Source of the DNA: Saururus chinensis
Lineage: Eukaryota; Streptophyta; Magnoliopsida; Piperales; Saururaceae
Assembly: GCA_035235625.1 (NCBI GenBank)
Contig: CP141148.1
Coordinates: 35,899,057 to 35,963,056 of the forward strand
Direction: 5' to 3'
DNA: 64,000 nucleotides
In this document: positions 3,484 through 47,219 of the stretch, piece after piece
Position numbering within the stretch: the first letter of the stretch is position 1
Layout of the letters: every line of letters begins with the position of its first letter
Position numbers and translations under genes: made by a program
The notes under the pieces: generated by a model
What the model was told of the DNA's origin: nothing
Database searches by the model: none
What the model saw: the letters and a program-made list of their open reading frames with translations, nothing else

Positions 3484-3776
3484 CTGTAAAAAGTTTTAAA
3501 AAAAGTTGTTAATATTTATATAAAAAAATTATTCATATAATAATTAAAATCACTTAATTTTCTTAAAAATTATTTCATTCATTGGAAAAATGAAATTAGT
3601 TAAAATTTTTTTTACAAAAAAGCAACGTAAGCGGGCGCCTGCGTGGCAAAAACCAACACCACTTTAAGAAATATTTCCCAAAGCGGGTTAGTTTGATAAT
3701 TATTTTTTTAATTATTATTTAAATAATTTTCCATATTTATATCAAAAAAATTAATTATATAAAAAACTATATTTAC

Positions 3777-3990
3777 CCATCTAAAATCGGTGGTGTAGAA
3801 ACTAAAATTTTCTACAAAGAGAACCTTAATAAATACTCTGATTAAGTTTGTAACCACAAATACTATGTTCAACTTCACTAATGGGGATCTATATACGATC
3901 CACATTATACAGTTAAAGATAGTTACCATGTATGTCTTAGCTTTAAATTTTTCAGTTCACCTTCTCTTCCATTTATACCATAAAGTTGGT
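3777..3990 (-). pseudogene. SWEET exon-3 copy nearest exon 4
   Basis: It is exactly 214 bp, with acceptor (GATAG) and donor (GTAAAT) both present. This is the array unit that directly precedes exon 4 of SWEET copy A, so it is the one a transcript would most simply join. It reads PTLWYKWKRR, then one TGA codon, then TEKFKAKTYMVTIF and FNCIMWIVYRSPLVKL, and stays open to the donor. The single stop makes it non-functional as it stands. Confidence 0.75.
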
Positions 3991-6183
3991 CTATCAATAA
4001 CAAAAAAAATTTGTGAGTAAGAAATTATTTCAAATTATTTGAATAATTAATAATAAAATGTAGTTATTTACACCCTAATAAACTCCATTGTCTTAAGGAC
4101 GAAATCACTTAATTTTCTTTAAAACAATTTCGTCTTTTTGATTGATGAAATTAACTTAAACTTAATTTCATTGTTCTAAAAAACGAAATAAGTTAATTTT
4201 TTTTTAAAAAAAAAAGCCACGTAGGCGCTAGCGCTTGAGTGGCTCCTCCATGGTAAAAACCAACACTATAGTAAAAAATATTTCCTAAAGCGGGTTAGTT
4301 CAGTAATTATTTTTTTAATTATTATTTAAATAATTTTTTCTATTTATATCAAAGTAATTAATTATATAAAAAGTAATATAAAAAATTATATTTACCCCGT
4401 CCATAATCAGTGGAGTAAAAATAAAATATTCCTACAAAGAGAACCTCAATAAATACTCCGATTGAGTTTGTAACCACAAATATTGTGTTCAACTTCACTA
4501 AAGGGGATCAAGATAGGATACACATTATATAGTGTAAGAGAGTCGCCATGTACGTCTCAGTTCTAAATTTTATATTTTACCTTATATTCCATATGTACCA
4601 GAAAGTTGGACTAACAATAACAAAAAAAATTTGTAAGTAAGAAATTATTTTAAATTTTTTGAACAATTAATAATAAAATATATTTATTTACACGTGAATA
4701 AACTCTATTATCTAAAGGACGAAATCACTTAATTTTCTTTAAAAAGATTTCATCCTTTGGAAGGAAAGTTGATTTTGTCGTTCCAAAGGACGGAATTAGT
4801 TAAAATTTTTATAAAAAAAACCACACAAGCGTCAGTGCTTGGCTGGTGCCTACGTGGAAAAACCCAACACCACTTTCAGAAATATTTCCCAATGCGGTTT
4901 AGTTTGGTAATTATTATTTTTTAATTTTTTTTAAAATTATTTTCCCTATATATAAATAATTAATTATATAAAAAGTAATATAAAAAACTATATTTACCAG
5001 TTAAGAATCGGTGGTGTAGAAATTAAAAATCCATACAAAGAGAACCTAAATAAATACTTCCATTAAGTTTGTAACCACAAATATTGTGTACAACTTCATA
5101 ATGGGGATCCAATTAGGATCTACATTTTATAATTTAAGAGTCGCCATGTACGTCTCAGCTCTAAATTTTTCAGTTTGCCTTTTCTTCCATAGGTAACAGA
5201 AAGGTTGTCCACCAATAACAAAAAAAATTCTAATTAAGAAATTATTTTAAATTTTATGAAAAATTAAAAATAAAATGTATTTATTTGCACCACTCCATTG
5301 TATAAAGGACGAAATCACTTAATTTTCTTTAAAACGATTTTGTCATTCAGAAGGATGAAATCAACTTAAACTTGATTTCGTCGTTCCAAAGGACAAAATC
5401 AATTAAATTTTTTAAAAAAAAGCCACGCAAGCGCCAGCGCTTAGCTCACACCGACGTAGCAAAAATCAATACTACTTTGAAAAATATTTCCCAAAGCGGG
5501 TAAGTTTGGTAATTATTATCTTTAATTATTAATTAAATAATTTTCCTTATTTAAATCAAATCAATTAATTATATAAAAAACTATATTTACACATCCAGAA
5601 TTGGTGGTGTAGAAACTAAAAATTCCTACAAAGAAAACCTTAATAAATATTTCAATTATTGTAACTGCAAATATTATGTTCAACTTTACTGATGGAAATC
5701 CATATAGGATCCACATTATACAGTTGAAGAGAGTCATCATGTACGTCTTAGCTTTAAATTTTTCAATTTGCCTTCTCTTCTATATGTACCAGAAAGTTGG
5801 TCTATCAATAATAATAAAAAATTGTAAGTAAGAAATTATTTTAAATTATTTGAACAGTTATTAATAAAATGTAGTTAAATACACCCTAATAAACTCCATT
5901 ATCTAAAGGACGAAATCGCTTAATTTTCTTCAAAACGATTTTTTGCTTTTGAAGAACGAAATCAACTTCAACTTTATATCGTCGTTTCAAAAGACGAAAT
6001 CAATAATTTTTTTATAAAAAATCCATGTAGGTGCCTGCGTGGAAAAAACCAACACCACTTTAGGAAATATTTCCCTAAGCGGGTTAGTTCTAATTATTAT
6101 TTTTAATTATTATTTAAATAACTTTCCTTATTTATATCAAAGTAATTAAATATATAAAAAGTAATATAAAAAACTATATTTAC

Positions 6184-6397
6184 CCATCCAGAAATGGTGG
6201 TGTAGAAACTAAAAATTCTTTCAAAGAGAACCTCAATAAATACTCCGATTAAATTTGTAATCGAAAATACTATGTTTAACTTTAATAATGGGGATCCATA
6301 TAAGATCAACATTATATAGTTGAAGAGAGTCACAATGTACATCTCAGCTCTTAATTTTTCAGTTTGCCTTCTCTTCCATATATACCAGAAAGTTGGT
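6184..6397 (-). pseudogene. Open SWEET exon-3 copy in array
   Basis: This 214-bp copy has an unbroken frame through the whole exon: PTFWYIWKRRQTEKL, then LFNYIMLILYGSPLL, then TNLIGVFIEVLF. The donor GTAAAT is intact. The acceptor dinucleotide reads AT (CTAT/ACC) instead of AG, so it would probably be skipped by the spliceosome. Similar GGTATA acceptor losses occur in the units ending near 9019, 11161 and 16147, which suggests these units descend from one another. Confidence 0.7.
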
Positions 6398-9300
6398 ATA
6401 GCAATAACAAAAAAAATTTGCGAGTCAGAAATTATTTTAATTTTTTTAAAAAAAATTAAGAATAAAATGTAGTTCATTACACCCTAATAAACTCCAATGT
6501 ATAAAGGATGAAATCACTTAATTTTTGTTAAAATGATTCATTTTTTGGAAGGACGAAATCAACTTAGACTTAATTTCATCCTTCCATATGATGAAATTGG
6601 TTAAAACTTAAAAAAAATAGCATGCACCAGGTCTTGGCTCGTGCCTAAGTGCCTCCCGCCTAAGTGCCAAAAACCAACATCACTATGGAAAATATTTCCC
6701 AAAGCGGGTTAGTTTGGTAATTATTATTTTTAATTATTATTTAAATATTTTTCCCTATTTATATCAAATCAATTAATTATATAAAAATTAATATAAAAAA
6801 TAATATTTACCTGTCCCTAATTGGAGGTGTAAAAACTAAAAATTCCTACAAAGAGAACTTTAATAAATACTCCGATTAAGTTTGTAAGCACAAATACTAT
6901 GTTCAACTTCACTAATGAGGATGTACATTATACAATTAAAGAGAGTCGCCACGTGCATCTCAGTTCTAAAATTTTCAGTTTGCCTTCACTTTCATATGTA
7001 CTATAAAGTTGGTCTAATAATGACAAAAAAAATTGTAACTAAGAAATTATTTTACATTTTTTGAACAATTAATAATAAAATGTAGTTGTTTACACCAGAA
7101 TAAACTCCATTGTCTAAAGGACGAAATAACTTAATTTTCTTTAAAACGATTTCGTCCTTTAGAAAGACGAAATCAACTTAAACTTGATTTTGTCGTTCCA
7201 AAGGACGAAATAAATTAAAATTTTAAAAATAAAAAGCCACGCAAGTGCCTACATGGAAAAAATAACACCAATTTGAGAAATATTTCCTAAAATGGGTTAG
7301 TTTAGAAATTATTATTTAAATAATTTTTAATATTTACATCAAAGTAATTAATTATATAAAAGTAATATAAAAAACTATACTTACACGTCCATAATCGGTG
7401 GTGTAGAAATTAAAAATATCCTAAAAGAGAACCTTAATAAATAATCCGATTAAGTTTGTAACTACAAATATTGTGTTCAACTTCACTAATAGGGATCTGT
7501 ATAGGATCTCCATTATACAAGTTAAGAGAGTCGTCATGTACGTCTTAGCTCTAAATTTTTCAATTTGCCTTCTCTTCTATATGTACGAGAAACTAAGTAT
7601 AGCAATAACAAAAAAAAATTAGGTAAGAAATTATTTTAAAATTTATGAACAATTAATAATAAAATGTAATTATTTACACCCAAATAAACTCCATTGTTTA
7701 AATGACGAAATAACTTAATTTTCTTTAAAAACGATTTCGTCTTTTAGAAAGACAAAATCAACTTAAACTTGATTTCGTATTTCCAAAACACAAAATCAGT
7801 TAAAATTTGAAAAAAATAGCCACACAGGCACCAGCGCCTGGCTGGCGCCTCCGTGGCAAAAACTAACACCGCTTTGGGAAATCTTTCCCAAAGCAGTTAG
7901 TTTGGTAGTCATTTTTTAAATTATTATTTAAGTAATTTTCCTCATTTATATTAAATTAATTAATAATATAAAGGGTAATATAATAAACTATATTTCCTTG
8001 TTAAGAATCGGTGGTGTAGAAACTAAAAATTCATACAAAGTGAACCTTACTAAATACTCCGATTAAGTTTGTAGCCACAAATACTCTGTTCAACTTTTCT
8101 AATAGGGATCAATATATGATCACATTATACAGTTAAAGAGAGTTGCCATGTTGTCTCAACTCTAAATATTTTAGTTTACCTTCTCTTTCATATGTACTAG
8201 AAAGTTGGCCTAACAATAACAAAAAAATTATAATTAAGAAATTTTAAAAAAAATTATAATAAAATGTATTTATTTACAACCTAAATAACTCCAATGTATA
8301 AAGGACGAAATCGCTTAATTTTCTTCAAAATAATTTCATCATTTGGAAAGACGAAATCAACTTAAATTTGATTTCATTGTCCCAAATAACATAATCAGTT
8401 AATTTTTTTTTTAAAAAGCCACGCAGGTGCAGCGCTTAGCTTGCGTTGACGTGAAAAAAACCAACACTACTTTGGAAAATATTTTACAAAGCGGGTAAGT
8501 TTGATAATTATTTTTCAATTATTATTTAAATAATTTTCCTTATTCAAATCAAAATAATTAATTATATAAAAAGTAATATAAAAAATATATTTACCCGTTT
8601 AGAATCGGTGGTGTAGAAACTAAAACTTCCTACAAAGAAAAACTTAATAAATACTCCGATCAAGTTTGTAACCACAAATATTGTGGTCAACTTTACTAAT
8701 TGGGATCTATATACGATCCACATTATACAGTTGAAGAGAGTCGCCATGTATTTCTTAGCTTTAAACTTTCCAATTTGCCTTATCTTCTATATGTACCAGA
8801 AAGTTGGTCTAACAATAACAAAAAAATTTGTAAGTAAGAAATTATTTTAATTTTTTTGAACAATTATTAAAAAATGTAGTTATTTACAACCTAATAAACT
8901 CCATTATCTTAAAGAAGAAATCACTTAATTTTTAATCGTCCTTTGTTAAAAATTTTAGTCGTCATGTACGTCTTAGCTCTAAAATTTTCAGTTTGCCTTC
9001 TTTTCTATATATACCAGAAAGTTGGTATAACATTAACAAAAAAAATTGTAAGTCAGAAATTATATTAAAGTTTTTGAACAATTAAGAATAAAATGTAATT
9101 ATTTACACCCTAATAAACTCCATTGTATAAAGGACAAAATCACTTAATTTTTGTTAAAAAAATTTGATCCTTTGTAAGGACAAAATCAACTTACACTTAA
9201 TTTCGTTGTTCTAAATGACGAAATTAGTTAAAACTTAAAGAAAAAAACATGCGCTAAGGCTTAGCTTTCACCTATGTGACAAAAACTAACATCACTTTGG

Positions 9301-10267
9301 AAAATATTTCCCAAAGCGGGTTAGTTTGGTAATTATTAATTTAAATTATTATTTACATAATTTTCCCTATTTATATAAAATTAATTAATTATATAAAAAG
9401 TAATATAAAAACTATATTTTCCCGTCCATAATTAGTGGTGTAAAAACTAAAAATTCTTTCAAAGAGAACTTTAATAAATACTCCGATTTAGTTTGTAAGC
9501 ACAAATACTATGTTCAACTTCACTAATGAAGATCAATATTATATAGTTGAAGAGAGTTGCCATGTATGTCTTAGCTTTAAATTTTTTAATCTGCCTTCTC
9601 TTTAATAAGTACTAGAAAGTTAGTCTAGTAATAAGAAAAAAAATTGTAAGTAAGAAATTATTTTAATTTTTTTTTAAATTTATTAATAAAACATAGTTAT
9701 TTACACCCTAATAAACTCCATTATCTAAATGACGAAATCACTTAATTTTCTTTAAGATGACTTCGCCATGTAGAAGGATGAAATCAACTTAAACTTGATT
9801 TTGTCGTTCCAAAGGACGAAATCAATTAAAATTTTATAAAAAAGCTACGTTGCACCTACGTGGAAAAAACTAACACTAATTTAGGAAATATTTCCTAAAA
9901 TAGGTTAATATAGTAATTACTCTTTAAATTACTATTTAAATAATTTTTCTTATTTATATCTAAGTAATTAATTATATAAAAAATTATATAAAAAGCTATA
10001 AATACCGGTCCATAATTGGTGGTGTCGAAACTAAACATTCTCACAAAGAGAACCTAAATAAATACTCCGATTAAGTTTGTAACTACAAATACTAAGTACA
10101 ACGTCACTTATGGTTTCACATTATAAAGTTAAAGAGAGTCTCAATGTACATCTCAGCTCTAAATTTGTAAATAAGAAATAATTTTAAAATTTTGTTAACA
10201 ATTAATAATAAGATGTATTTATTTACACCCTATTAAACTCTATTTATTAAAGGACGAAATCGCTTAA

Positions 10268-10543
10268 GTTTTTTAATATACATAATAATAAATTTTACAA
10301 TTACAAAATTTTAATTTTATTTATTTAATTTTTTTACATATTAAAAATATATTTAGCTTTATATGCGGAAGTATAAAAATAAGTTTTTATTTTATTTAAG
10401 TGTGTCGGGCATGTCGAGGAGGGTGCTACTAGTCACACCTATTGGTGGAGGACACTCATAAGGTCATTATTTCCTAAGAGGAGGAGGTCATTCATCAAGC
10501 AAGAGGTCATTTTGCATGATGAGGAGGTGGAGACTATCCTTTA
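10268..10543 (+). pseudogene. SWEET intron 5/exon 6 relic in opposite orientation
   Basis: From about 10270 the plus strand matches intron 5 of SWEET copy B (ATACATAATAATAAA and following AT-rich DNA at 59880). It then matches degraded exon 6: TTTAGCTTTATATGCGGAAG, then GGCATGTCGAGGAGGGTGCT, then a GAGGAGGAGGTCATTCATCA tail. It lies inside the minus-strand exon-3 array but points the other way. Stops and small gaps abound. It shows that the array has been reshuffled together with other SWEET parts. Confidence 0.65.
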
Positions 10544-10870
10544 GGCCCCCTTTTTACTCTTTACTTAAAGGGATAAATATGTGGTGGAGTAGGAAAAAAT
10601 CCGTATCCTACTCACCCCCTTACTGGATTTCATATTTAGATAAGATTAACTAAGTCTTATCTATTCCAACTTAGCAAATGGGGCCTACACATAACCACTC
10701 TCTCTCATGTCTCTCGTCCTTTTCCATTAAATAAAGTTGGTACAAACCCACTGACCTAACAAAAAGTTCTATTATACTCTTTTTTATTTTTAATATAATA
10801 TAATAAATTAGTGAGACAGCCTGAAAGCCTAACTAAGGGGAATTAGGGATTGTACTGGGCGTGTCCCTCT
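10544..10870. mobile_element. Short MITE-like insertion(s)
   Basis: The segment 10544-10689 is bounded by AGGCCCC and GGGGCCT, a short terminal inverted repeat with TTA to the left, as in PIF/Harbinger (Tourist-like) MITEs. The right flank is TAC, so the target duplication is imperfect. The rest to 10870 is non-coding and differs from array units, although array sequence resumes near 10870. Family assignment is tentative. Confidence 0.35.
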
Positions 10871-13800
10871 TGCTATTAAAAACATGGTCTAGCAATAAAA
10901 AAAAATGTTAGTAAGAAATTATTTTAAACTTTTTGAACAATTATTAATAAAATGTAGTTATTTACACCGTAATAAACTCCATTATTTAAAGGACAAAATT
11001 AACATAAACTTAATTTTGTCGTTCTAAAGGACGAAATCAATTAAATTTTTTTTCAAAAAAGCCACACAAATTTTTAGTTATCCTTTGTTAAAAAATTTAG
11101 TCATCATGTACGTCACAGCTCAAAATTTTTCAGTTTACCTTCTTTTCCATATATACCAGAAAGTTGGTATAACACTAACACAAAAATTTGTAAGTCAGAA
11201 ATTATTTTAATTTTTTTGAAATTAAGAATAAAATGTAATTATTTACACCCTAATAAACTCCATTGTATAAAGGACAAAATCACTTAATTTTAGTTAAAAT
11301 GATTTTGTCCTTTGTAATGACGAAATCAACTTACATTTAATTTCGTTGTTCTAAATGATGAAATTATTTAAAACTTAAGAAAAAAGCATGCGCTAGGGCT
11401 TGGCTTGCGCCTAAGTGACAAAAACAATCATCACTTTGGAAAATATTTCCCAAAGCGGGTTAATTTGGTAATTATTAATTTTAATTATTATTTATATAAT
11501 TTTCCCTATTTATATCAAATTAATTAATTATATAAAAAGTAATATAAATACTATATTTTCCCGTCCATAATTAGTGGTGTAAAAACTAAAAAATCTTACA
11601 AAGAAAACTTTAATAAATACTCCGATTTAGTTTGTAAGAACAAATACTATGTTCAACTTAACTAAAGGGGATCCACATTATAGAGTTGAAGACAGTCGCC
11701 CTGTACGTCTTAGCTTTTTTTTATTATTATTATGTACCAAAAAGTTGGTCTAGTAATAAGAAAAAAATTGTAAGTAAGAAATTATTTTAATTTTTTTGAA
11801 CAATTATTAATAAAATATAGTTATTTACACCCTAATAAACTTAATTATCTAACGGATGAAATCACTTAATTTTCTTTAAAATGACTTTGTCTTTTGGACG
11901 GATGAAATCAACTTAAACTTGATTTTGTCGTTCCAAATGATAAAATCAATTAAAATTTTTTAAAAATAGCCACGCATGCGCCTACGTGGAAAAAATGAAC
12001 ACAAATTTAAGAATATTTCCTAAAGCGGGTTAGTTTGATAATTATTATTTAAAATTTTTTTATTATTTATATCAAAGTAATTAATTATATAAAAAGTTAT
12101 ATAAAAAAACTATATTTACCCGTCCAAAATCAATGGTGTAGAAATTAAAAATTCTTACAAAGAGAACCTAAGTAAATACTCCGATTAAGTTTGTAACCAC
12201 AAATACTAAGTACAATGTCACTTATGAGGATCTATATAGGTTCCACATTATAAAGTTAAAGAGAGTCTCAATGTACATCTCAGCTCTAAATTTGTAAGTA
12301 AAAAATAATTTTAAAAATTTTAAATAATTAATAAAAATATATTTATTTACACCTTAATAAACTCCATTATCTAAAGGACGAAATCACTTTATTTTCTTTA
12401 AAATGATTTCGTTCTTTGGACAAACGAAATCAACTTAAACTTAATTTTGCCAATCCAAATGACAAAATCAGTTAAAATTTTAAAAAGAAAAAGCCACGCA
12501 GGTGCGTACTTGGAACAAACCAACACCAATTTTGGAAATATTTCCCAAAGCGGGCTAGTTTAGTAATTAATTTTTTAATAAATTATTTAAATTAATTTTC
12601 CTATTTATATCAAAGTAATTAATTATATAAAAAATAATATAAAAAACTATATTTACCTAGCCAGAATCGGTGGTGTAAAACTAAAAATTATTACAAATAG
12701 AACCTAAATAAATACTCTAATTAAGTTTGTAACATGAAATATTGTGTTCAACGTCACTAATGGGCATCGATTTAGGTTCCACATTATACAGTTGAAAAGA
12801 GTCGTTAAGTACATTTGAGCTCTAAATTTTTAAGTAAGAAATTATTTTAATTTTTTTAAATAATTAATAATAAAATATAGATATTTACACCATAATAAGC
12901 ACCTTTGTCTAAAGGACGAAATCACTTCATTTTCATTAAAATGATTTCATCCATTAGAATTACCAAATCAACTTAAACTTGATTTCGTAGTTCCAAAAGA
13001 CGAAATCAGATAAATTTTTTTAAAGCAAAAGCCAAGTAGTCGCAAGTGCTTAGCTAGCGCCGACGTGGCAAAAACCAACACCACTTTGGAAAATATTTCC
13101 TAAAGTAGGTTAATTTGGTAATTATTATTTTTAATTATTTTTAAATAATTTTTTCTATTTAAACCAAAGTAATTAATTATACAAAAAATAATATAAAAAA
13201 CTATATTTACACGTCTAAAATTGGTGGTGTTGAAACTAAAAATTCTTACAAAGAGAACCTTAATAAATACTCAGATTAAGTTTATAACTACAAATGCAGT
13301 GTTCAACTTAACCAATGGGGATCCATATTGGATCCACATTATACAGGATAAGAGAGTCGCCATGTACATCTCAGTTCTAAATTTTTCAGTTTGCCTTTTC
13401 TTCCTTATGTAGTAAAAAGTTAGTCTAGCAATAAAAAAAAATTATAAGTAAGAAATTATTTTAAATTTTTTAAAAAATTAATAATAAAATATACTTATTT
13501 ACATCACAATAAACTCCATTGTCTAAAGGATGAAATTAATTAAGTATCTTTTAAACGATTTCGTACTTTGGAAAGATGAAATCAACTTAAATTTGATTTC
13601 ATTGTTCCAAAGGACGAAATCAGTTACATTTTTTATAAAAAGAATGTCATGTTGGTGCCTACGTGGAAGAAACCAACACCACTTTGGGAAATATTTCCCA
13701 AAGCGGGTTAGTTTGGTAATTATTTTTATAATTATAATTTAAATAATTTTCTTTATTTATATATATATATATAATTAATTATATAACAAGTAATATAAAA

Positions 13801-14410
13801 AACTATATTTCCTCGTCCAGAATGAGTAGGGTAGAAACTAAAAATTCGTACAAGGTGAACCTTAATAAATACTTAGATTAAGTTTGTAACAACAAATATT
13901 TTGTTCAACTTCACTAATGGGGATCCATATATGATCCACATTATATAGTTGAAGAGAGTCACCATGTACGTCTCAGCTATAAATTTTTCTGTTTGCCTTC
14001 TCTTCAATATGTACTATAAAGTTTGTCTAGCAATAACAAAAAAAATTATAAGTAAGAAATTATTTTATATTTTTTGAACAATCATTAATAAATTGTAGTT
14101 ATTTACACCATAATAAACTCCATTATCTAAAGGATGAAATTACTTATTTTTCTTTAAAACAATTTCGTCATTTGGAAGGACGGAATCAACTTAAACTTAA
14201 TTTCGTTCTTTCAAAGGACGAAATTAGTTAAAATTTTTAAAACATAAGTCGCGCAAGCGCCTGCGTGGCAAAATCCCACACTACTTTAGGAAATATTTCC
14301 CAAAGCAGGTTAGTTTGGTAAATAATTTTTTTAATTATTATTTAAATATTTTTCCTATTTATATCAAAGAAATTAATTATATTAAAAATAATATAAAAAA
14401 CTATATTTAC

Positions 14411-14944
14411 CTGTCCAGAATCGGTGGTGTAGAAACTAAAAATTCGTATAAAGAGAACCTCAATAAATACTCTGATTAAGTTTGTAACCACAAATATTGT
14501 GTTTAACTTCACTGACGGGGATGCATGTAGGATCCACATGGCACACTTAAATAGAGTCGCCATGTACGTTTTAGCTATAAATTTCTTAGTTTGCCTTCTC
14601 TTCAATATGTACAAGAACCTAAATAAATACTCTAATTAAGTTTGTAACTACAAATATTGTGTTTAACTTCACTGATGGGGATGTATGTAGGATCCACATA
14701 GTACAGTTGAATAGAGTCGTCATGTACGTCTTAGCTATAAATTTCTTAGTTTGCCTTCTCTTCAATATGTACGAGAACCTCAATAAATACTCCGATTAAG
14801 TTTGTAACCACAAATATTGTGTTTAACTTCACTCATGGGGATGTATGTAGGATCCACATGGTACAGTTAAATTGAGTCGCCATGTACGTCTTAGCTATAA
14901 ATTTCTTAGTTTGCCTTCTCTTCAATATGTACTAGAAAGTTAGT
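14411..14944 (-). repeat. 160-bp internal triplication within one SWEET exon-3 copy
   Basis: In this unit the central and 3' part of the exon (from GAGAACCT to TTCAATATGTAC on the plus strand) is present three times, with a period of 160 bp (starts near 14453, 14613 and 14773). The three copies are very similar, so the step is more recent than the spread of whole 600-bp units. The period is not a multiple of three. The first-transcribed copy contains stops. Confidence 0.75.
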
Positions 14945-15343
14945 CTATCAATAAAAAAATTTGAAGTAAAAAATTATTTAATTTTTTAAAAAAATTAACA
15001 ATAAAATGTAGTTATTTACACCCTAGTAAACTCCATTGTTTAAAGGACGAAATCACTTAAGTTTCTTTAAACTGATTTCGTCTTTTGGAAGGACAAAATC
15101 AACTTAAACTTGATTTTGTCATTCCAAATAATGAAATCAGTTAAATATTTTTAAAAAACAAAGCCACGCCGGCGCCAGCCAAGAGTTGGCGCCTACGTGG
15201 CAAAAACCAACACTACTTTAGAAAATATTTCCTAAAGATGGTTAGTTTGGTAGTTATTTTTTAAAATTATTATTTAAATAATTTTCCCTATTTATATCAA
15301 ATTCATTAATTATATAAAAAGTAATATAAAAAAGTATATTTAC

Positions 15344-15557
15344 CTGTCCAAAAATGGTGGTGTGAAAACTAAAAATTCCTATAAATAGAACCTTAATAAA
15401 TACTCCGATTTAGCTTTTAACCACAAATATTGTGTTCATCTTCACTAATGGGGATCCATATAGGATCCACATTATACAGTTAAAGAGAGCCGTCATGTAT
15501 GTCTCAGCTCTAAATTTTTTAGTTTGCCTTCTCTTCAATATGTATTAGAAAGTTGGT
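15344..15557 (-). pseudogene. SWEET exon-3 copy with both splice signals
   Basis: A 214-bp copy with a GCTAG acceptor and GTAAAT donor. The tryptophan of the PTFW motif is replaced by a TAA stop, so it is not translatable in full. It illustrates that exon length and splice signals are often kept where the frame is not. Confidence 0.65.
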
Positions 15558-16205
15558 CTAGCAATAACAAAAAAACAAATTTGTTTGTAAGAAATTATTT
15601 GAAAATTTTTGAATAATTAATAATAAAATGTAGTTATTTACAACTTGATAAGCTTCATTGTCTAAAAGGACGAAATTACTTAATTTTCTTTAAAAGAATT
15701 TCGTCCTTTGGTAGGACAAAATTAACTTAAACTTGATTTTGTCGTTCCAAAGGACGAAATTAGTTAAATATTTTTTAAAAAAACCACATAAGCGCCAGCG
15801 AAGCCAACACCACTTTGGGAAATATTTCCCAAAGCGGGTTAGTTTGTTGATTATTTTATTAATTATTATTTAAATAATTTTCCCTATTTATACCAAAGCA
15901 ATTAATTATATAAAAATAATATAAAAAACTATATTAACCTGTCCAAAATCGATGGTATAGAAACTAAAAATTCCTACAAATAGAACCTAAATAAATATTC
16001 CGATTTAGTTTGTAACTACAAATACTATGTTGAACTTCACTAATGGGGATCCATATTGGATCCACATTATAGAGTTGAAGAGAGTCACAATGTACATCTC
16101 AGCACTTAATTTTTCAGTTTGCCTTCTCTTCCATATGTACCAAAAGTTGGTATAGCAATAACAAAAAAAAATTGTAAGAAATTATTTTAAATTTTTTTAA
16201 AAATT

Positions 16206-18060: not shown

Positions 18061-18089
18061 CGCCTCGACTTTTTACATTACTTTAAAGG

Positions 18090-19080: not shown

Positions 19081-19147
19081 CAGTAAAACGACCGTTTCAA
19101 TTGATTTGGAGGCAGTGACTCGGTAAAACGACCGTTTCAATTGGTTC
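19081..19147 (+). promoter_or_regulatory. Direct repeat in germin-like gene promoter
   Basis: The motif GTAAAACGACCGTTTCAATT occurs twice, about 40 bp apart (near 19083 and 19123), around 140-200 bp before the ATG of the germin-like gene. CCGTT is a possible MYB-type core, which is an inference from motif shape only. The spacing and near identity suggest a duplicated cis element. Confidence 0.45.
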
Positions 19148-24099: not shown

Positions 24100-25656
<1,557 letters not shown>

Positions 25657-26830: not shown

Positions 26831-27011
26831 TTTTAAAGATCTGTTTTACACTAAATTTAACATTTGTCCCTATTCATACATTCCACACATTCCATTTCAT
26901 TCCACTCATTTCATGCATATCAAAGATAACATTAAAGTTATTGACATCATTGAATAAAAACAAACATTGTCTATAAATGTTTATCAAATATATTACACAC
27001 AAGGGGAGAAA

Positions 27012-29345: not shown

Positions 29346-29585
29346 GAATTAAGATCACATCATTATTCGTCAGGAACATTTTTATCATACCTAAAATAGA
29401 GAATAAATAAATAGATTGATTATATGTTTACCAATCAACAAGAGGATTTCTACATGCTCTACTATTGTGCCCACTTTGTTTACACCTCCCGTATTTATAT
29501 CCTCCTCTACCATCTCTTTCCATCATTCCATGGTCCATTGTATTCCTAATACGAACAGACCGTGGGTGACCAGGTTGCCTTGTTA

Positions 29586-33237: not shown

Positions 33238-33494
33238 TAAAAAGACGACAATTTTGTCCGTTAAAAGGACGAAATCGTTTTCTGCCCAGTCGCGGTTTTG
33301 TCCTTAAGAAGGACGAAATCAGCTTAAGTTGGTTTCGTCCTTCTAAAGGACGAAATCGGTTCCACTGTATTAAAACGTGAACCAGTTTCGTCTTTTAGAA
33401 GGACTAAATCCACTTAAAGCTGATTTCGTCCTTCTAAAGGATGAAATCAACTAAAAAAAAGCCATGCAGGCGTCTATGTGGCAAAAAGGAACAC
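33238..33494. repeat. MULE right terminal inverted repeat
   Basis: This is the inverted match of 26522-26830, with four or more GATTTCGTCC / GGACGAAATC hairpin modules, ending GGCAAAAAGGAACACC. The following sequence (ATTATTTAAATAACTTTCC) is array flank that lacks the 22-bp palindrome normally found before it. Confidence 0.8.
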
Positions 33495-36203
33495 CAATTA
33501 TTTAAATAACTTTCCTTATTTATATCAAAGAAAATAATTATATAAAAAGTAATATAAAAAACTATATTTTCCCATCCATAATAAGTGGTGTAGAAAGTAA
33601 AAATTCCTAATAAGAGAACCTTAATAAATACTCCGATTAAATTTCTAACCACAAATACTATGTTCAACTTCACTAATGGGGATCCATATAAGATCCATAT
33701 TATGTAGTTCGAGAGTCGCCATGTATGTCTTAGCTCTAAATTTTTAGTTTACCTTATCTCTAATATGTACCAGAAAGTTAGTCTAGTAATAACAACAAAA
33801 AATTGTAAGTAAGAAACTATTTTAAATTTTTTGAACAATTAATCATAAAATGTAGTTATTTACACCTTAATAAACTTCATTGTCTAAAGGATGAAAACAT
33901 TTAATTTTTTTAAAAAAACTTAGCCTTTAGAATGACGAAATTAACTTAAACTTGATTAGTTAATTTTTTTTTTAAAAAAACCATGCAGGAGAGCTAGCGC
34001 CTATATGGCAAAAACCAACACTACTTTGGAAAATATTTTTAAAAACAGTTTGGTATTTTTTTAATTATTATTAAATATTTTTTCCTATTTATATTAAAGA
34101 AATTAATTATATAAAAAGTAATATAAAAATCTATATTTACCCCTCCAGAATCGGCGGTGTATAAACTAACAATTCCTACAAAAAGAACCTTAATAAATAC
34201 TCCAATTAAGTTTGTAACCACAAATACGGTGTTCAACTTCACTAAAGGGGATCCATATAGGATCCACATTATAGAGTTAAAGAAAGTCGCCATGTACGTC
34301 TTAGCTATGAATTTTTTAGTTTGCCTTTCTTCCATATGTACCAAAAAGTTGGTCTTGTAATAACAAAAAAACATGGAAGTAAGAAATTATTTTAATTTTT
34401 TTCAACAATTAATAATAAAATGTAGTTATTTACACCCTTATATCCATTGTCTAAAAAATGAAATTACTTAATTTTTTTAAAACGACGAAATCAACTTAAA
34501 CTTGATTTCGTCTTTCAAAAAGATGAAATCAATTAAATTTTTTTAAAAAAACCCACAAAAACCAACACCACTTTAGAAAATATTTCCCTAAGAAAGTTAG
34601 TTTGGTAATTATTATTTTTCATTATTATTTAAATAATTTTCTTATTTATATCAAAGCAATTAATTATATAAAAAGTAATATAAAAAGCTATATTTACCTC
34701 TCAATGATCGGTGGTGTATAAACTAAAAATTCATATAAAGAGAACTTAAATAAATATTCACATTAAGTTTGTAACCACAAATATTGTGTTCAACTTCACT
34801 AATGCAGATTTATATATGATCTAAATTATACCGTTAAAGAGAGTCGCCATGTACGTCTTAAGTCTAAATTTTTCAATTTACCTTCTCTTTTATATGTACT
34901 AGAAAGTTAGTCTAAAAAAAAATTGTTAGTAAGAAATTATTTTAAATTTTTTGAACAATTAATAATAAAATATTGTTATTTACACCCTAATAAACTACAT
35001 TGTCTAAAGGACGAAATCACTTAATTTTCTTTAAAATGATTTCATTCTTTGGAAAGACAAAATCAACTTAGTTAAATTTTTATTAAAAAAACAGCTACAC
35101 AGGCATCAATGCTTGGCTCGTGCCTACAGGTCAAAAACCAACACTACTTTGAGAAATATTTCCCAAAGCGGGATAGTTTGGTATTATTTTTTAATTATTA
35201 TTTAAATAGCTTTCCTATAGGATCCCCATTATATAGTTGAAGAGAGTCGCCATCTACGTCTTTGCTCTAAATTTTTTAATTTGCCTTTTTCTATATTTAA
35301 AATAATGTTATTATAACAATAACAAAAAAAATTTCTAAGTAAGAAATTATTTGAACTTTTTTGCACAATTAATAATATAATGTAGTTATTTACACCCTAG
35401 TAAACTCCATTGTTCGAAAGACGAAATCTACTTCCATATTTAAGTTGATTTCGTCGTTCCAAAGGATGAAATTAGTTAAAAAAAATTTTAAACAAAAGCC
35501 TTGGAGGTGCCAACACTCTGTGTCAAAAACCAACACCACTTTGGAAAATTAGTTTGGTGATTATTTTTTAATTATTATTTAAATAACTTTCCCTATTTAT
35601 ATAGAATCAAATAATTATATAAAAAGTAATATAAAAAACTATATTTACCCCTCCAGAATCGGTGGTGTAGAAACTAAAAATTCTTACAAAGAGAACCTAA
35701 ATAAATACTCCGATTTAGTTTATAACCACAAATACTGTGTTCAACTTCACTAATGGGGATCTATATAGGATCCACATTATATAGTTGAAGAGAGTCACCA
35801 TCTACATCTCAGCTCTAAATTTTTTAGTTTGCTTTCTCTTCCATATGTACAAGAAAGTTCGTTTAACAATAACAAAAAAAATATGTAAGCAAGAAATTAT
35901 TTTAAATTTTTTGAATAATTAATAATAAAATGTAGTTATTTACACCCTGATAAACTCCATTGTCTGAAAGATGGAATCACTTAATTTTCTTTAAAACGAT
36001 TCCATCATTCGGAAGGACGAAATCAACTTAAGCTTGAGTTCATCATTCCAAAGGATGAAATCAGTTAATTTTTTTTAAAATAAGAGCCACAAAAACCAAT
36101 ACAACTTTGGAAAATATTTCCCAAAGAAAGTTAATTTGGTAATTATTATTTTAATTATTATTTAAATAATTTTTTTATTTATATTATAGCAATTAATTAT
36201 ATA
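33495..36203 (-). repeat. SWEET exon-3 tandem array, block 2 (about 5 units)
   Basis: Same unit as block 1 and same orientation. Exon 5' ends fall near 33783, 34354, 34910, 35300 and 35860. The copy ending near 34354 has a one-base loss in KRRQ (GGAAGAAAGGC) but is otherwise close to open: KTYMATFFNSIMWILYGSPL. The unit ending near 35300 lacks most of the exon. The block stops at a TA dinucleotide where the element 36204-37306 is inserted, and resumes exactly after it. Confidence 0.9.
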
Positions 36204-37306
36204 CTCCCTCTGCCCTATATTAATAGCTCCAATTAGAAAAAAAAATGTTATATAATAATTGCTCCATTTCACTTGATTTAAGCCTAAATTAATCTATTAT
36301 GATTCTCATAGCTTTCACGCTTCCACTTTTTGACCGAGATATCTAATCTGTATTTTTTTCCATTCCTCCTCTAGCCTCTTAAATTTTTCTCCGTAATCTG
36401 CCAGCTCCAGTTCTCATGGCCTCCACTCCTTCCCATCGACTCATCCTCTAGAACAACAAGGGAAATTAGGAAGTGAATAGGACCTTGGAGTCCACCTGCG
36501 AGCTCAGACTAAAAAATGTGGTGAGCTTCTCTGTCGAGCTCGGAACATCCTCCCCGAGGTGCAAAACCTCCTCCTTGATCCTCTTCACCTAGTTGTGCAC
36601 GGCTCTGCACCTCCCATCCCTGTTGACTACTACACCGCTCGTGGTCCCCAGAAAGCCCCATAGAAGGGGAACCGGAGCCAACTAGGCCGTTGTTGCGGTT
36701 TTGTTTCACCTCCGCCGGGCCTTAGTTAGTGGCCTCTATGCACGGGTCATATTTTTTTGCAGCGTGCAGTGCCTCAATGGGGCACCTTCTGCCACATAAG
36801 TAGGTAGAGGAAGTGGTCGACCTTGGAGTCAAAGAACGGGAGGTGATGGTGGGGCCTGGGAGAGCAGTGATCGGAGTTGGAGTTGATGCTGAGAGGAATG
36901 AGCACTAAAGAGGCATGGGAGGGTAGAGATGCTGGGGAGGGGGAACATGTGGACGACGTAAAGGGCGGTGCTGGAGGGCGGTGCAAAGGTGGTGGTGGTG
37001 AAGTGGGTGAGGGAGAAGCGGAGCTACAAGGAAGTTCGTCAAATACTCAAGAAACATCGGTCTGGTGAGGCACTAGAATATGGTGGCGCTTCCCACTTAC
37101 TACTACTCCAGAGACGAGCTCCTTGTCGCTTTTGATATCTTCTCCAAAAATCAATGTTCTTTTCAAATAACAAAAAAAATTAGATGTGACTCAGGACTCC
37201 TCAAGCATAATATCCATTTTTATTATGCTGATATTTAGGTGAGCTCATGATAAGATAAAAATTACCAAAAAAAAGAAATGGAGCTATTAATATAGGATGG
37301 AAGGAG
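36204..37306. mobile_element. Large Stowaway-like element (1.1 kb) with GC-rich cargo
   Basis: The ends are CTCCCTCTGCCCTATATTAA and the complement of TTAATATAGGATGGAAGGAG, extending to AGCTCCA on both sides, with a TA target duplication. Removing it restores the array unit (ATTATATA/AAAAGTAATATA). Stowaway MITEs are normally 100-400 bp. Here 36360-37140 is GC-rich and gene-like, with frames such as VVVVKWVREKRSYKEVRQIL on the plus strand, but I recognise no family. It may be captured host DNA. Confidence 0.7.
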
Positions 37307-38607
37307 TAAAAAGTAATATAAAAAACTATATTTACCTGTCAAGGATTGGTGGTGTATAAACTAAAAATTCCTACAAAGAGAACATAAATAAATACTCCGA
37401 TTAAATTTATAACCACAAATACTATGTTCAACTTCACTAATGTGCATCCATATATGATCCAAATTATACCATTAAAGAGAGTCGCAATGTACGTCTTAGC
37501 TCTAAATTTTTTAGTTTACCTTCTCTTCCATATGTACTAGAAAGTTGGTCTAAAAATAACAAAAAAAATTGTAAGTAAGAAATTATTTTAAATTTTTTGA
37601 ACAATTAATAATAAAATATTGTTATTTACACCCTAGTAAATTTTATTGTCTAAAAGATGAACTCACTTAATTTTCTTTGAAATGATTTTGTCCTTCGAAA
37701 AGACGAAATCAACTTTGTTAAATTGTTTTTTAAAAAAGAAGTCACGCAGGCGTCATCGCTTAGCTCGCGCCTACGGGTCAAAAACGAACACCACTTTGGG
37801 AAATATTTCTCAAAGCGGGATAGTTTGGTAATTATTTTTTTAACTATTATTTAAATAACTTTCCCTATTTATATCAAAACAAATAATTATATAAAATGTA
37901 TTATAAAAAACTATATTTTCCAGTCTAGAATCGGTAGTGTAGAAACTAAAAATTCTTACAAAGAGAACCTTAATAAATACTCCGATTAAATTTATAACCA
38001 CAAATACTGTGTTCCACTTTACTAATGGGGATCTATATAAGATCCACATTGTACAGTTGAAGAGATTCGTCATGTACGTCTTAGCTCTAAATTTTTTAGT
38101 TTGCCTTATCTCCAATATGTACCAGAAAGTTGGTCTAGTACTAACAAAAAGAGTCCCGTTTATATGAGCCCGGGTACATGCCGGCGCGCATGAGCCCGGG
38201 CTCATATTAATTTTTTCAACAATTAATAATAAAATGTAGTTATTTACACCTTAATAAACTCCATTTTATGTAGGACAAAATTATTTAATTTTCTTTTAAA
38301 AAATTTGGCATTTGGAAGGCCGAAATCAACTTAAACTGAATTAGTTATTTTTTAAAAAAAAACCACACAAGTGCCAATGCTGAATAGGTGCCTACGTGGC
38401 AAAAACCAACACTACTTTGGTTTATATAATAAGTAATATAAAAATCTATAGTCACCCATCTAGAATCTATGGTGTAGAAATTAAAAATTGCTACAGATAG
38501 AACCTTAATAAATACTCCAATAGAGTTTGTAACCACTAATATTGTGTTCAACTTCACTAATGGGGATCCATATATGATCCACATTATATAGTTGAAGAGA
38601 GTCGCCA
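37307..38607 (-). repeat. SWEET exon-3 tandem array, block 3 (about 2.5 units)
   Basis: Exon 5' ends lie near 37554 and 38134. A third exon is cut at 38607 by the LTR insertion and continues at 45957. A 55-bp GC-rich scrap with GAGCCCGGG twice (38152-38206) has replaced intron 2 sequence behind the second unit. Confidence 0.85.
37921..38134 (-). pseudogene. Open SWEET exon-3 copy
   Basis: A 214-bp copy with a full open frame: PTFWYILEIRQTKKF, then LFNCTMWILYRSPLV, then INLIGVFIKVLF. The acceptor reads ACTAG, but the donor reads GAAAAT in place of GTAAAT, so splicing out of it should fail. Confidence 0.7.
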
Positions 38608-41192
38608 TGTAAGATCTCTAATCTTAAACCGGTTTTCATTCACTTTAATTATCGGTTATCGTGAGCTTAACACGTTTTAGAATTTATTCGGTGGTTTTCA
38701 AGATAGATGGTGTTTCTCATTGTTTTAATCAAAATCAACTTTTTAATTAGTGGTTTTAAGTGATGTTGAATCAAATGTGAATTTTTGGGATTTTTCTGAA
38801 TTTTTATTATTTTTTCAAAAATTAGGGTTTGGCGGGACCCTGTGGGCCCCACCGTCAAAATTTGGGTTTTTGGACCAAATGAACCCAGACATCAACACAA
38901 GACTTTACAAAAATTTTCATAATTTTTCCAGGTTTTATTAGTGCTCAAATAACTAAATTACCCATTTTTAGCCTATTTTTCTATTAATACTCTACAATTT
39001 ACCCATACACACCCCAAGAGTTTACTATAAAAGGCCAAACCTGAGCCATTCCTATTTTGGGAATAGGCTGAGAAGGAGAGGTTAGTCCTAATCCCCAATT
39101 AGGCTCGAATTAGAAGGTGTTTAAGGTAAGTTAATTCTAATTAAGCACCAAATCCTAGCTTTTCTCTCAATCTCTTCTAGATCTACCATTTCCCCTTTGT
39201 TTTGATTCATTTTTTTTTAAACATCAAAACTACTGATTTGCATCTTTACTTCAAACCCTAGCTCTAAAAATCCGATTTTTATGTTCAACAAGCCCTAGAT
39301 CTAAGTTTTTAATTAGGGTTTTTTATGTTAAATAGGTTTTAATGGAGTTTAATTCAAACTCTATGTCTTTGTAAGGTTTTCATGAAGGGTGACCATCAAA
39401 TTGAAGCCTAATTAAGGGATAAGGTAATGGACTTTCGAAATTTCAGTCTTCCTATAGTAAAACTCTTGATTTTGTGGTTTGTTTTGAATGGATTTACTTG
39501 ATTTAGTGCTTTAATGGCATGATTAGTAAATGGTAATCTTTTATCCCGATTTCTTAGGGCTTTCTTTTAGAATGGTATAGATTAGTGTTATGGAAGGTTT
39601 CATGAGTTTTTGATAATGTTTGGTACCATGGATGAAGATTTGAAGGTGTTTTCATGGTGTTTCCGTTTTGAAATTCGAAATGAAGAAGATGACCAAAATT
39701 GATTTGTTGGCGTTAGAACGGCCCTGCAGGGCGTTCGAACGACAACACTACAGCTTTGGCATCTTTCCTGTTTAGCCAATCGAATGGCCCTATAGGGCGT
39801 TCGAACGGCTACACTGCAGGATTTGACCATTTTATGTATGTTGCTTATTTTGACATATCTACTCCAAAATATTATTTTTATGTTTTTGTGGTGTGTTTTG
39901 AGCTATAGTAAGCTACTAAGATGGTATACCATTGATGTCTTGAAGTTGTGGTATATATATTTAAAGTTATGTGGAATGGCTTGTGGTTGGATGTATGATG
40001 TCGGAATTGTCATCTTGAAGTTATGAATGGTTGATTCTCTATAGTTAAGTATATTTTTAGTAGAACTACAACATACTAACAGACTGATATATTACGATAT
40101 GATGTGGTTAATTGATGTGTGAATGTTAGTGAACTTCATAGCTTAAGGATGAAGTGAATGATCTTATATGTGTTTAGTTTGTGGTTGAGCTTAGATTTGA
40201 GTTATGATTTCAATGATTCTTCTCCTATGATTTTCGCTGGAATTCATGATTAGATGTTAACTCACATGTGTAGTGTGATAGTGAGTTAATTTCAAGCATG
40301 TTGATATGCATTTAGTGAAGTGTTTCTACTAGGTACACACACATGTGGGGTTTAATGATGATGTTGAAGTTTGATATTATAATTATGAATGATGCACTAG
40401 GGTTTGATGAGAGCACTTATCATGAATTAAGATTCATGTATGCCTTACCCACGTATGTACCATGTTGCATGCATCATAAAAATGAATTTCCAATTGAGGC
40501 TTTATTGATGTTTAATCGGAGTTAATCAATTGGATGTAATGGTTGAGATTGCATGCCGGATTAATCGCTCATTGAATTAATCGAAACTTGGTCGGTCCGA
40601 AAGGACATGTTTTCGATTTAAGTCTTGTGTAGAACAGCCGAGGAGAAACCATTAGACACTTGCGGTATGGGACGCATTATGTCAATGGATAGCTCTAAGG
40701 TTTGTTGCGTTAGTGCTTAGTTAAATTTGCTTCTATGGCGTCACGAATACTCATGGTATGGGACATGAGGACTAGAGTCGACATAGAGGTATTTTTACGT
40801 GCACACTCCGAGTCGGGTTGACTCTAGTTAAAAGGAATTTATGGTTTATGTTTGGTTTAAGATCATGACATCATGCATCATGGATTGGACTTCATGAACG
40901 AGGTTTTACCGTTGGTTAATCGGAATTGATCGGTTGTATGCAATGGTTGAGATTGCTTGCCGAATTAATTGCTCAGTGAATTAATCGAAACTTGGTTGGT
41001 CCGAAAGGACATGTTTTTGATTTGAGTTCCTGTGTGGAACATGTGCACTCCCTGGGTTGAGTCTAGTTAAATGGAGTTATGTAGGGATGAGTTGCGTACT
41101 TGTCTTGCGGATTGAGATTATTATGATTATTTGGACCCTGAGAATCCAGTTGGTTTGTCCAAGTACACCAGCTTACCAGGTATTGTTGCTTG

Positions 41193-41490: not shown

Positions 41491-41491
41491 T

Positions 41492-44400: not shown

Positions 44401-44976
44401 TAGAAAGGATTAAGAAGAAAGCTAGGGTTTAGTGCTTAATTAGAATATGCTTACCTTAAACACCTTCTAATCCGGGCCTAATTAGAGATTAGGCCTAACC
44501 TCTCCTCCTCAGCCTATTCCCAAAATGGGAATGGCTCAGGTTTGGCATTTTATAGTAAGGGTTGGGGTGTGTATAGGTAAGTTATGGGGTGTAAATAGAA
44601 AAAGTAGGCTAAAAATGGGTATTTTACAAATTTGAGTACTAATTAAGTCTAAGAAAATTCTGAAATTTTTTATATGACCTTAAGTAGATATCTGGGTTCA
44701 TTTGACATAAAACAAAAATTTCGATGGTGGGGTCCACAGGGGTCCCGCCAAAACCCTAATTCTCGAAAAAATAGTGAAAATTCAAAAAAATCCCAAAAAT
44801 TCATATTTGATTCAAAATCACTTAAAACCACTAATCTTAAAGTTGATTTTGGTTAAAACCATCATAAACACTATTTATTTACGAAACCACCGAATAAAAT
44901 CAGAAAACACGTTAACCTCACGATAACCGATAATTAAAGAAAACCAAAAACCGGTTTAGAGATGAGGGTCCTTACA
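41492..44976 (-). mobile_element. Nested solo LTR, same family, opposite orientation
   Basis: It starts TGTCACACCCCGGCG and ends GAGGGTCCTTACA, and is flanked by GCTTT on both sides (perfect 5-bp target duplication). It is 3485 bp. It aligns in reverse with 48225-53541 and with the element it interrupts. The promoter-like TATA motif appears in reverse near 44550. It carries the ~58-bp repeat (see 42150-42545) as the others do. Confidence 0.85.
42150..42545 (-). repeat. ~58-bp minisatellite inside the nested LTR
   Basis: About seven units containing CATGAATGTATCTCTAACAT and ATTCCATCATGCATCATATC repeat in tandem. The same repeat, in the other direction, occurs in the sister LTRs at 45130-45310, 50740-50900 and 52661-52880. 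Confidence 0.85.
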
Positions 44977-45956
44977 GCTTTGGCCTTGAGGAGCAGGAGT
45001 TGCTTGAGTCTTCAGTCTTGACAAGCAGGAGTTGCTCGAAGGCATTGGCCTTGAGGAGCAATTTTATTCTCTATGTGTATGGACTTGCATGTTGGACTAG
45101 TGTGTGTGCGACACTTATATATGCATGATGAATAAGAATGATGTGATGCATGATTGGATATGTATGTTAGAGATACATTTCATGCAGGTTGATATGATGT
45201 GATGCATGGTTGGATATGTATGTTAGAGATACACTTCACGCGGGTTGATATGATGTTGAGGCATAATTTGATATGTATATTAGAGATACATTTCATGCAG
45301 GTTGATATGATGTGAATGGCACTATGTGGATTATACACTATGATACAGGTTTAGGTGATGTGTCTGTGTGATCAGAAAATGATACATCTTGTTAATCTTT
45401 GATCTGAATGATTTTATTGATATGCTATCGTATTTCCGATGATGATAGTTATATTAAAAACCATTGCTGAGGTTTGTTAAACTCACCCCTCTTTATTGTG
45501 TTTTGATTTGGGGCTGCGTGGCGCGACACGTAGATGAACAGGATCTCTTCTTTGAGGAAAGATCAGAGACGACTTGGATGTGATTGTGGAGATTCTTATG
45601 TGACTTATTTTCCTCAGTTTATGTTTAGAACCTTTGTATATGATTCTCTGTTGGATTTATGTTACTTTATACAGTTGTGTTGTTTAAGACCTATTTTAGA
45701 GCCAGTGTGGGCTATGGTTGACTAAGCATGTGGGTTTGAGACCAGTTGTTTATTTTAAGTTAAGCGACTCTCTTTCTTTTATACTTATTTACTCTTACTC
45801 AAAGTGGTGTGCGTACTTCGTAATTCTGTTAAGTCACCCGTGGTTAGGGTTAAGTCTTCCGCTAAACTGTTTCTCATTTTTTCCTCGTCGCCCCTGCGGG
45901 CTTGACCGGCCCCTGGACCGGGTTCGACTCGGGTCGGGTAGCACCTGGGCATGGCA

Positions 45957-47215
45957 CGCCATCTACGTCTCAGCTCTAAATTTTTCAGTTTGCCTTCTCT
46001 TCCATATATAAAATAAAGTTAGTATAACAATTACAAAAAAAATTTGTAAGTAAGAAATTATTTTAACTTTTTTGAATAATTAATAATATAATGTAGTTAT
46101 TTACACCCTTGTAAACTCCATTGTCTAAAAATTACTTAATTTTTTTAATATGATTTCATCCTTCGGAAAGACGTAATAAACTTTAAGTTTATTGACAAAA
46201 TTAGTTAAAAAGAGTTTTAAATAAAAGCTTTGGAGACGCCAACACTCCGTGTTAAAAACAAACACCACTTTGGGAAATATTTCCCAAAGCGGGTTAGTTT
46301 GGTGATTATTTTTTAATTATTATTTAAATAACTTTCCGTATTTATATACAATCAAATAATTATATCAAAAGTAATATAAAAAACCATATTTACCCCTCCA
46401 GAATTGGATGTGTAGAAACAAAAAATTCCTACAAAGAGAACCTTAATAAATACTCCGATTTAGTTTGTAACCATAAATACTGTGTTCAATTTCACTAATT
46501 TGGATCCATATATGGTCCACATTATATAGTTAAAGAGAGTCACCATGTACATCTCAACTCTAAATTTTTCAGTTTACCTTCTCTTCCATATGTTCTAGAA
46601 AGTTGGTCTAGAAATAGCAAAAAAAATTTGTAAGAAATTATTTTAATTTTTTTGAATAATTAATAATAAAATATTGTTATTTACACCCTAATAAACTCCA
46701 TTGTCTAAATGACAAAATCACTTAATTTTCTTTAAAATGATTTCGTCATTCGAAAAGACAAACATTCCAAAGGACAAAATTAGTTATTTTTTTTAAAAAA
46801 AAAACCACGTAGGAGCCAGCGCAGGTCAAAAACCAACACCACTTTGGGAAATATTTCCCAAAGCGGGTTAGTTTGGTTATCATTTTTTCAATTATTATTC
46901 AAACAACTTTCCATATTTATATCAAAGCAAATAGTTATATAAAAAGTAATATAAAAAACCATATTTTCCCATCTAGAATCGGTGATGTAGAAACTAAAAA
47001 TTCCTACAAAGAGAACCTCAATAAATACTCCAATTGAATTTATAATCACAAATACTGTGTTCAACTTCACTAATGGGGATCCATATAAGGTCCACATTAT
47101 AGAGTTGAAGAGAGTCGCCATGTACATCTTAGCTCTAAATTTTTAAGTTTGCCTTGTCTCCCATATGTACCAGAAAGTTGGTCTAGTAATAACAAAAAGA
47201 AATTGTAAGTAAGAG
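45957..47215 (-). repeat. SWEET exon-3 tandem array, block 4 (about 2.5 units)
   Basis: It resumes the exon cut at 38607. Further exon 5' ends lie near 46605 and 47182. Two exact copies of the 22-bp palindrome are here (46268-46289 and 46842-46863). The block ends where a scrap of the 3.5-kb LTR begins (47220). Confidence 0.9.
46969..47182 (-). pseudogene. SWEET exon-3 copy, last of the array
   Basis: A 214-bp copy with an ACTAG acceptor and a GAAAAT donor in place of GTAAAT. The 3' two thirds read openly: MYMATLFNSIMWTLYGSPLV, then INSIGVFIEVLFVGIFSFY. It is the furthest array copy from exons 4-6. Confidence 0.6.
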
Positions 47216-47219
47216 AATC

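Follow-up and report, generated by a model that had tools for sequence, protein, structure and literature searches.

A SWEET exon array on two contigs

The window analysed here, 64,000 bp of the Saururus chinensis genome (C9:35899057-35963056; negative numbers and numbers above 64,000 refer to the same contig, C9, outside the window), contains a tandem array built from a single internal exon, exon 3, of a SWEET transporter gene. Exons 4-6 adjoin the array at its low-coordinate end, a Mutator-like element lies within it, and an unamplified SWEET paralogue is found at 59 kb (Table 1). A scan for units and exons over C9:35779057-36043056 and C4:39300501-39317063 recovered 79 exon-3 pieces in four blocks, 59 of them full length. 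Three unamplified neighbouring SWEET genes (at 59, 88 and 137 kb), with which the exon-3 matches number 82, are excluded from the array counts. The block in the window, block C, comprises 34 pieces between 3767 and 47192, all on the minus strand and 23 of full length; three of the 34 (14401-14954) stem from a 160-bp triplication within one exon. An earlier sequence-only reading of the window had given about 30 copies, which was a fair estimate, and its block coordinates nearly equal those of our unit model. The array is larger than that reading had it and continues beyond the window, with block A (-112798 to -106871; 9 pieces, 8 full) and block B (-15532 to -7430; 13 pieces, 12 full) on C9, and a further array on C4 (C4:39301172-39315838; 23 pieces, 16 full).

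The units follow each other head-to-tail, on the minus strand on C9 and on the plus strand on C4. Their near-constant period of about 600 bp, the single strand within each block and the presence of truncated units are those of a tandem satellite. Genome scans covered 11 contigs (516 Mb), and, with 40 of 81 candidates scored, matches to the exon core were confined to the arrays on C9 and C4.

The exon measures 214 nt. Its array consensus translates without stops and matches the Pfam domain MtN3_slv (PF03083) at 45.4 bits (cut-off 23.7), which confirms that the ~600-bp minus-strand units carry SWEET exon 3, as had been read from the sequence. Single units match the profile as well: in a six-frame genome scan 21 of them exceed the MtN3_slv cut-off (11 in the window, 6 elsewhere on C9 and 4 on C4). 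The unit model also aligns to the SWEET genes at 59, 88 and 137 kb across exon 3 and the adjoining intron ends, and the exon borders agree.

The other exons are scarce. By blastn, one damaged set of exons 4-6 lies at the array end in the window and another at the C4 array end (lesions of both read by eye); additional copies are an inverted set within block A, a partial set within C4 and small inverted fragments. In array orientation the window has a single set, running from 3483 down to about 2780, so that the earlier statement of a single occurrence at the low end holds for this orientation, with an opposite-strand intron 5/exon 6 fragment in addition at about 10265-10549. Against 79 exon-3 pieces these few sets bear out the amplification of one internal exon, and the scarcity of exons 4-6 and 1-2 rules out amplification of the whole gene.

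Exons 1-2 adjoin the 5' end of no block in the scanned C9 and C4 regions. Blocks B and C break off within intron 2, where closely similar junctions lead into foreign sequence (B at -7430), while block A and the C4 array end in other sequence. Next to exon 6, on the opposite strand, is a SWEET 5' flank with exons 1-2 (855-2744), an arrangement that suggests an inversion. A decayed SWEET 5' flank with exons 1-2 was also found in array orientation at 80124-78317 (-), 31 kb upstream of the array end, beyond the opposite-strand 59-kb gene and with the GT after exon 2 lost; it could be a 5' half displaced from the array gene or an independent fragment. With no exons 1-2 beside the 5' ends and with lesions in exons 3-6, there is no open frame over six exons as in a functional SWEET gene.

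Decay of the exon copies

Among the 59 full copies seven are stop-free and five are free of both stops and frameshifts. The AG is kept in 38/59 and the GT in 45/59, and two copies are open with both splice sites, one of these being the last C4 unit, which adjoins exon 4. In the window, two of the 23 full copies lack stops and frameshifts, and none of the 23 has both splice sites in addition. Divergence from the consensus at codon positions 1/2/3 is 0.113/0.114/0.094 (79 pieces), without a third-position excess, and the exon has diverged by 0.110 compared with 0.095 and 0.084 for the introns (36 C9 units). Rates of C>T/G>A change in 36 units are 0.235 at CG, 0.257 at CHG and 0.139 at CHH sites, the first two being about 1.7-1.9 times the last; a C-to-T excess at CG and CHG sites is expected under DNA methylation. 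The array copies thus look like dead pseudo-exons that are no longer able to make protein, and a coding role for the array is not likely. The sequence-only reading had recognised them correctly as SWEET-derived but had missed this damage.

The founder exon was probably under selection, because the array consensus shows a third-position excess relative to the paralogues: it differs from the 137-kb gene at 9, 7 and 16 sites of codon positions 1-3. Between the 137-kb paralogue and the 59-kb and 88-kb genes there are 15, 9, 24 and 15, 11, 23 differences, respectively, of 71 sites at codon positions 1, 2, 3; the 59-kb and 88-kb genes differ from one another at 0, 2 and 1.

Clusters of mutually exclusive exons of the Dscam type contain dozens of copies of one exon per gene, and the array might be seen as such a cluster, in which one SWEET gene swaps part of the first membrane domain. 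The length of 214 nt, not a multiple of three, would make a tandem pair shift the frame, which would suit this idea, as would the splice sites kept in the proportions given above and the exon 1-2 fragment that shares the array's orientation (80.1-78.3 kb). Nevertheless, 54 of the 59 full copies carry stops or frameshifts, no window copy is intact with both splice sites, exons 4-6 are damaged, exons 1-2 adjoin no block in the scanned sequence, and the 78.3-kb fragment is without the GT after exon 2. Unlike Dscam-type clusters, the array has hardly an open frame left and bears no sign of selection. On the evidence of stops, splice sites and codon positions we reject a coding alternative-exon cluster, an explanation we consider practically out of the question.

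A regulatory role, in which small RNAs from the array silence intact SWEET paralogues, would find some support in the inverted motif present in most units (reverse-strand matches of the unit model) and in a CG/CHG decay typical of methylation. The units have nonetheless diverged from the three paralogues by a mean Kimura two-parameter distance (K80) of 0.249-0.312, and such silencing seems very unlikely.

Transposon-derived part of the unit

The sequence-only reading described the units as exon 3 with pieces of introns 2 and 3. These parts are present, but about 39% of a typical unit, some 235 bp, is the end of a dispersed transposon-like repeat that had been missed. After the exon come about 65 bp of intron 3, then the ~235 bp of repeat, rich in inverted motifs, and then the exon 2/intron 2 border of the next unit. 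The repeat part occurs at 12 non-array sites on C1, C2, C3, C4, C7, C8, C9 and C11 (40 of 3121 first-look candidates scored), and six dispersed copies that were aligned are 80-86% identical. This repeat also constitutes both inverted ends of the 7.06-kb Mutator-like element (MULE) at 26453-33515, whose MULE transposase (PF10551) scores 61.9 bits (cut-off 27.6); one of its four tested reading frames is without a domain match. Since the unit repeat corresponds to the inverted ends of an element with a MULE transposase, we interpret it as a Mutator-like end in intron 3 that became part of the unit.

Block B has a homologous site without the 7-kb element, and the unit repeat is nevertheless common to the blocks. 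From this comparison the 7-kb element would have arrived after the duplication of B and C or have been lost from B.

The last unit preserves an insert in intron 3, 213 bp long in C and 250 bp in C4, flanked by ATATAAATA(T) on each side. In the unamplified 137.5-kb paralogue, which represents the empty site, ATATAAATA(T) occurs once and the insert is absent. Target duplications of Mutator-like elements measure about 9 bp. The inverted ends of this insert are no more than suggestive.

Several copies of a GATTTCGTCC-type inverted motif were observed in Mutator-like ends at L053, L050 and window positions 26453-26900. A paper on anti-silencing in Arabidopsis that uses the terms Mutator-like element and tandem repeat (PMC5735166) may bear on this.

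Pack-MULEs capture exons, and the Mutator-like end in the unit raises the question of whether a Pack-MULE captured exon 3 and spread it. The transposon ends beside each exon are, however, direct and not inverted, so that no gene piece lies between inverted ends; the exon core was found at no dispersed site among the 40 of 81 candidates scored, and the last unit continues into native intron 3 and exons 4-6. End orientation and the lack of dispersed exon copies among these candidates speak against such a capture, which we regard as most improbable.

Relationships among units and blocks

The 23 full window units differ pairwise by K80 of 0.106-0.294. Reciprocal best pairs connect 11 of the 16 full C4 units (rho -0.91) and 7 of the 12 full units of block B (rho -1.0) with units of block C in the same order (in the numbering used, a negative rho means the same order in the array sense). 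Mean K80 of the pairs with block C is 0.089 for C4, 0.093 for B and 0.111 for A, compared with 0.194 within block C. Matched units being less diverged than units within C, amplification would have come first and block duplication later. The pairing and order of the units indicate one amplification followed by duplication of array blocks, clearly for B and C4 and only partially for A. Together with its flanks, block B aligns in order with pieces of the window between 18.7 and 48.2 kb. Block A shares alignments of about 2 kb with C (the best being -112782 to -110809 with 5482-7457, 86.3%), and from these it is probably a duplicated copy too, with weaker support than B and C4. Many units of C4, A and B group in the tree with particular units of block C, and 30 of 59 inner branches are well supported.

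Long repeats are prone to assembly error, and a false expansion or uncollapsed haplotypes might produce an apparent array. The distances within C, and of about 0.09-0.11 between matched units, were judged too large for haplotypes or read errors, and a transposon insert tells B from C. Because window units differ by K80 of 0.106-0.294, collapse or an assembly echo is unlikely, and we give almost no credence to an assembly artefact.

Divergence shows no significant dependence on distance along the array, a recent multi-unit duplication in C4 excepted. Correlation coefficients (with the number of 5000 permutations as high) are 0.156 for C (289, borderline), 0.148 for B (839), -0.176 for A (3854) and -0.184 for C4 (4741), and mean K80 in block C ranges from 0.187 to 0.195 over lags 1-10. 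This fits and favours an amplification burst, although it is not a proof.

Origin of the array

We hold it highly probable that we are dealing with a dead, satellite-like array that arose from one SWEET exon and a Mutator-like transposon end and whose blocks were later duplicated. A short Mutator-like derivative would first have inserted in intron 3 near the exon 4 splice site with a target duplication of about 9 bp, as indicated by the insert-free paralogue with its empty site; homology to a MULE points to the transposon class. The interior of the insert would then have been joined to the exon 2/intron 2 border, which would have resulted in a head-to-tail duplication of exon 3. The junction itself is present in the sequence, and its recurrence in the unit model makes a single founding event likely. 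Subsequently the unit would have multiplied into dozens of copies, probably within a brief burst, by unequal exchange in the direct repeats or via a circular intermediate. The copies would have drifted without visible coding constraint and with the observed methylation-type C-to-T bias, and, as colinear unit pairs show for B and C4 and less strongly for A, blocks were duplicated within C9 and between C9 and C4 and were hit by further transposons.

Several observations weigh against this scenario. The order of the reciprocal pairs between blocks A and C (5 of 8) is not significant (rho -0.4, p 0.50). In the tree 18 of the 59 inner branches lack resolution, the bootstrap had not converged, and block labels are distributed nearly at random (32 changes; shuffled mean 33.0), which fits colinear copies and is no proof of them. 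The intron-3 insert has weak inverted ends in AT-rich DNA, their score being reached by 3 of 1000 shuffles in C and 50 of 1000 in C4. No target duplication could be read by eye around the 7-kb MULE, whose target contains the same repeat.

The mode of amplification is less certain. Slow, gradual growth through stepwise unequal crossing-over, instead of a burst via a circle, is a credible possibility, albeit one we doubt somewhat. The transposon end provides about 235 bp of direct homology flanking each exon, C4 underwent a recent multi-unit duplication (lag 9 mean K80 0.113, 7 pairs), and the distance decay in block C is borderline; on the other hand, divergence does not rise significantly with distance, a signal that old multi-unit turnover could also erase. 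More tentative, and in our view rather unlikely, is the birth of the satellite from the exon in a single burst via a circle of about 600 bp, reaching from the transposon to the exon 2/intron 2 border, with blocks passed on to the second chromosome. If true, this would let us read how a protein-coding exon gave birth to a satellite.

Unamplified paralogues and neighbouring features

The 59-kb SWEET paralogue is 96% identical to a twin at 88.4-89.7 kb, both being carried by a 5.9-kb duplication (55234-61039 and 84706-90552, the second outside the window; 94.8%). The twin is intact-looking and was read as exons 2-6; it matches MtN3_slv at 95.5 bits, and its product matches the solved chains 5xpd ("sugar transporter") and 5ctg (SWEET2b). 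Introns 2 and 3 of the neighbouring genes are about 80-90 bp long and have no insert, the 5' border of intron 2 being indistinct in the 137-kb gene. At E 1e-3 the unit model matched none of eight SWEET loci elsewhere (L001-L008, about 3.2 kb each), and no insert was seen in them. On C11, SWEET-domain matches at 11964831-11964968 (+) and 11964985-11965146 (-) lie 16 bp apart on opposite strands, perhaps as an inverted exon duplication.

Between two parts of the array, a Cupin reading frame at 19465-20043 (+), presumably germin-like, was observed, and the stretch of 18.7-20.6 kb has a 97%-identical copy at -28.6 to -26.7 kb. A 56-bp minisatellite occurs at 42149-42555, 45138-45315, 50736-50904 and 52656-52887, accompanied by two further minisatellites similar to each other, of 32/65 bp (41185-41491) and 33 bp (50500-50607). 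The insert at 36204-37306 is classed as Mariner/Stowaway-like by its CTCCCTC ends and the TA on either side.

Table 1. Features of the SWEET exon-3 array and its surroundings in the window (window coordinates).
Feature	Position	Strand	Remarks
Array block C, part 1	3642..16208	-	23 exon-3 pieces, ~600-bp units; nhmmer unit model
Array block C, part 2	33497..36203	-	5 exon-3 pieces
Array block C, part 3	37307..38647	-	3 exon-3 pieces
Array block C, part 4	45957..47216	-	3 exon-3 pieces; 5' end of array, intron 2 cut and joined to unrelated sequence; no adjoining exon 2
Exon 4	3331..3483	-	sequence reading, start checked, blastn
Exon 5	3133..3251	-	one base shorter than C4 copy (frameshift), by eye
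Exon 6	2780..3057	-	without ~95 bp that the C4 copy has
SWEET 5' flank and exons 1-2	855..2744 (855-1009, 1023-1477, 2456-2744)	+	inverted relative to array, ends in intron 2 near exon 6; blastn with 88-kb gene
Inverted intron 5/exon 6 fragment within array	10265..10549	+	C4 counterparts ~39303.86-39304.15 and 39305.15-39305.44 kb; blastn
Transposon-like insert, 213 bp	3521..3733	-	intron 3 of last unit, between two copies of ATATAAATA(T)
Mutator-like element within array	26453..33515		inverted ends 89% identical over 150 bp; frames matching MULE transposase, SWIM and plant mobile domain
Mariner/Stowaway-like insert, 1.1 kb	36204..37306		within one unit; TA on both sides; homologous sequence in block B
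Unamplified SWEET paralogue	58878..60230	+	short introns 2 and 3, no insert; exon 5 one base longer than in twin; exon 1 assignment tentative

Comparison with known systems and implications

Satellite DNA derived from genes or transposons is tandem, non-coding and subject to methylation-type decay, and the SWEET array resembles it in all three respects. It differs in its readable origin, with a coding exon and its introns and the attached exons 4-6, and in its presence in two genome regions.

Tandem amplification of internal gene segments and enlarged SWEET proteins are already known. In human LPA, kringle IV type 2 (KIV-2) is an internal exon-bearing segment tandemly amplified inside a gene, with units of about 5550 bp, up to 40 repeats and about 40 different alleles (PMC7613587). 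These repeats are coding and variable in number, whereas the SWEET array consists of a single 214-nt exon that is dead and diverged and has a transposon end in its unit. The extraSWEET and superSWEET proteins, with 14-15 helices in grape and wild rice and 18-25 in oomycetes, likewise reflect SWEET genes enlarged by internal duplication or fusion (PMC5742349). There, whole multi-helix domains are multiplied, in contrast to the array, in which one non-functional exon with a length not divisible by three is repeated. Neither a single-exon SWEET array nor an exon-plus-MULE satellite was found in the open-access literature (excluding subscription papers and preprints), among the matches listed and as judged by title and the start of the abstract.

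Gene counts based on domain scans may be inflated by such arrays, as 21 units exceed the SWEET cut-off although 54 of the 59 full copies carry stops or frameshifts. To our knowledge, the origins of satellite DNA are rarely readable. Here the founder exon, the junction, the transposon, exons 4-6, unamplified relatives and duplicated blocks survive together, which makes the order of events testable, and the array would illustrate that a coding exon can turn into satellite-like DNA.

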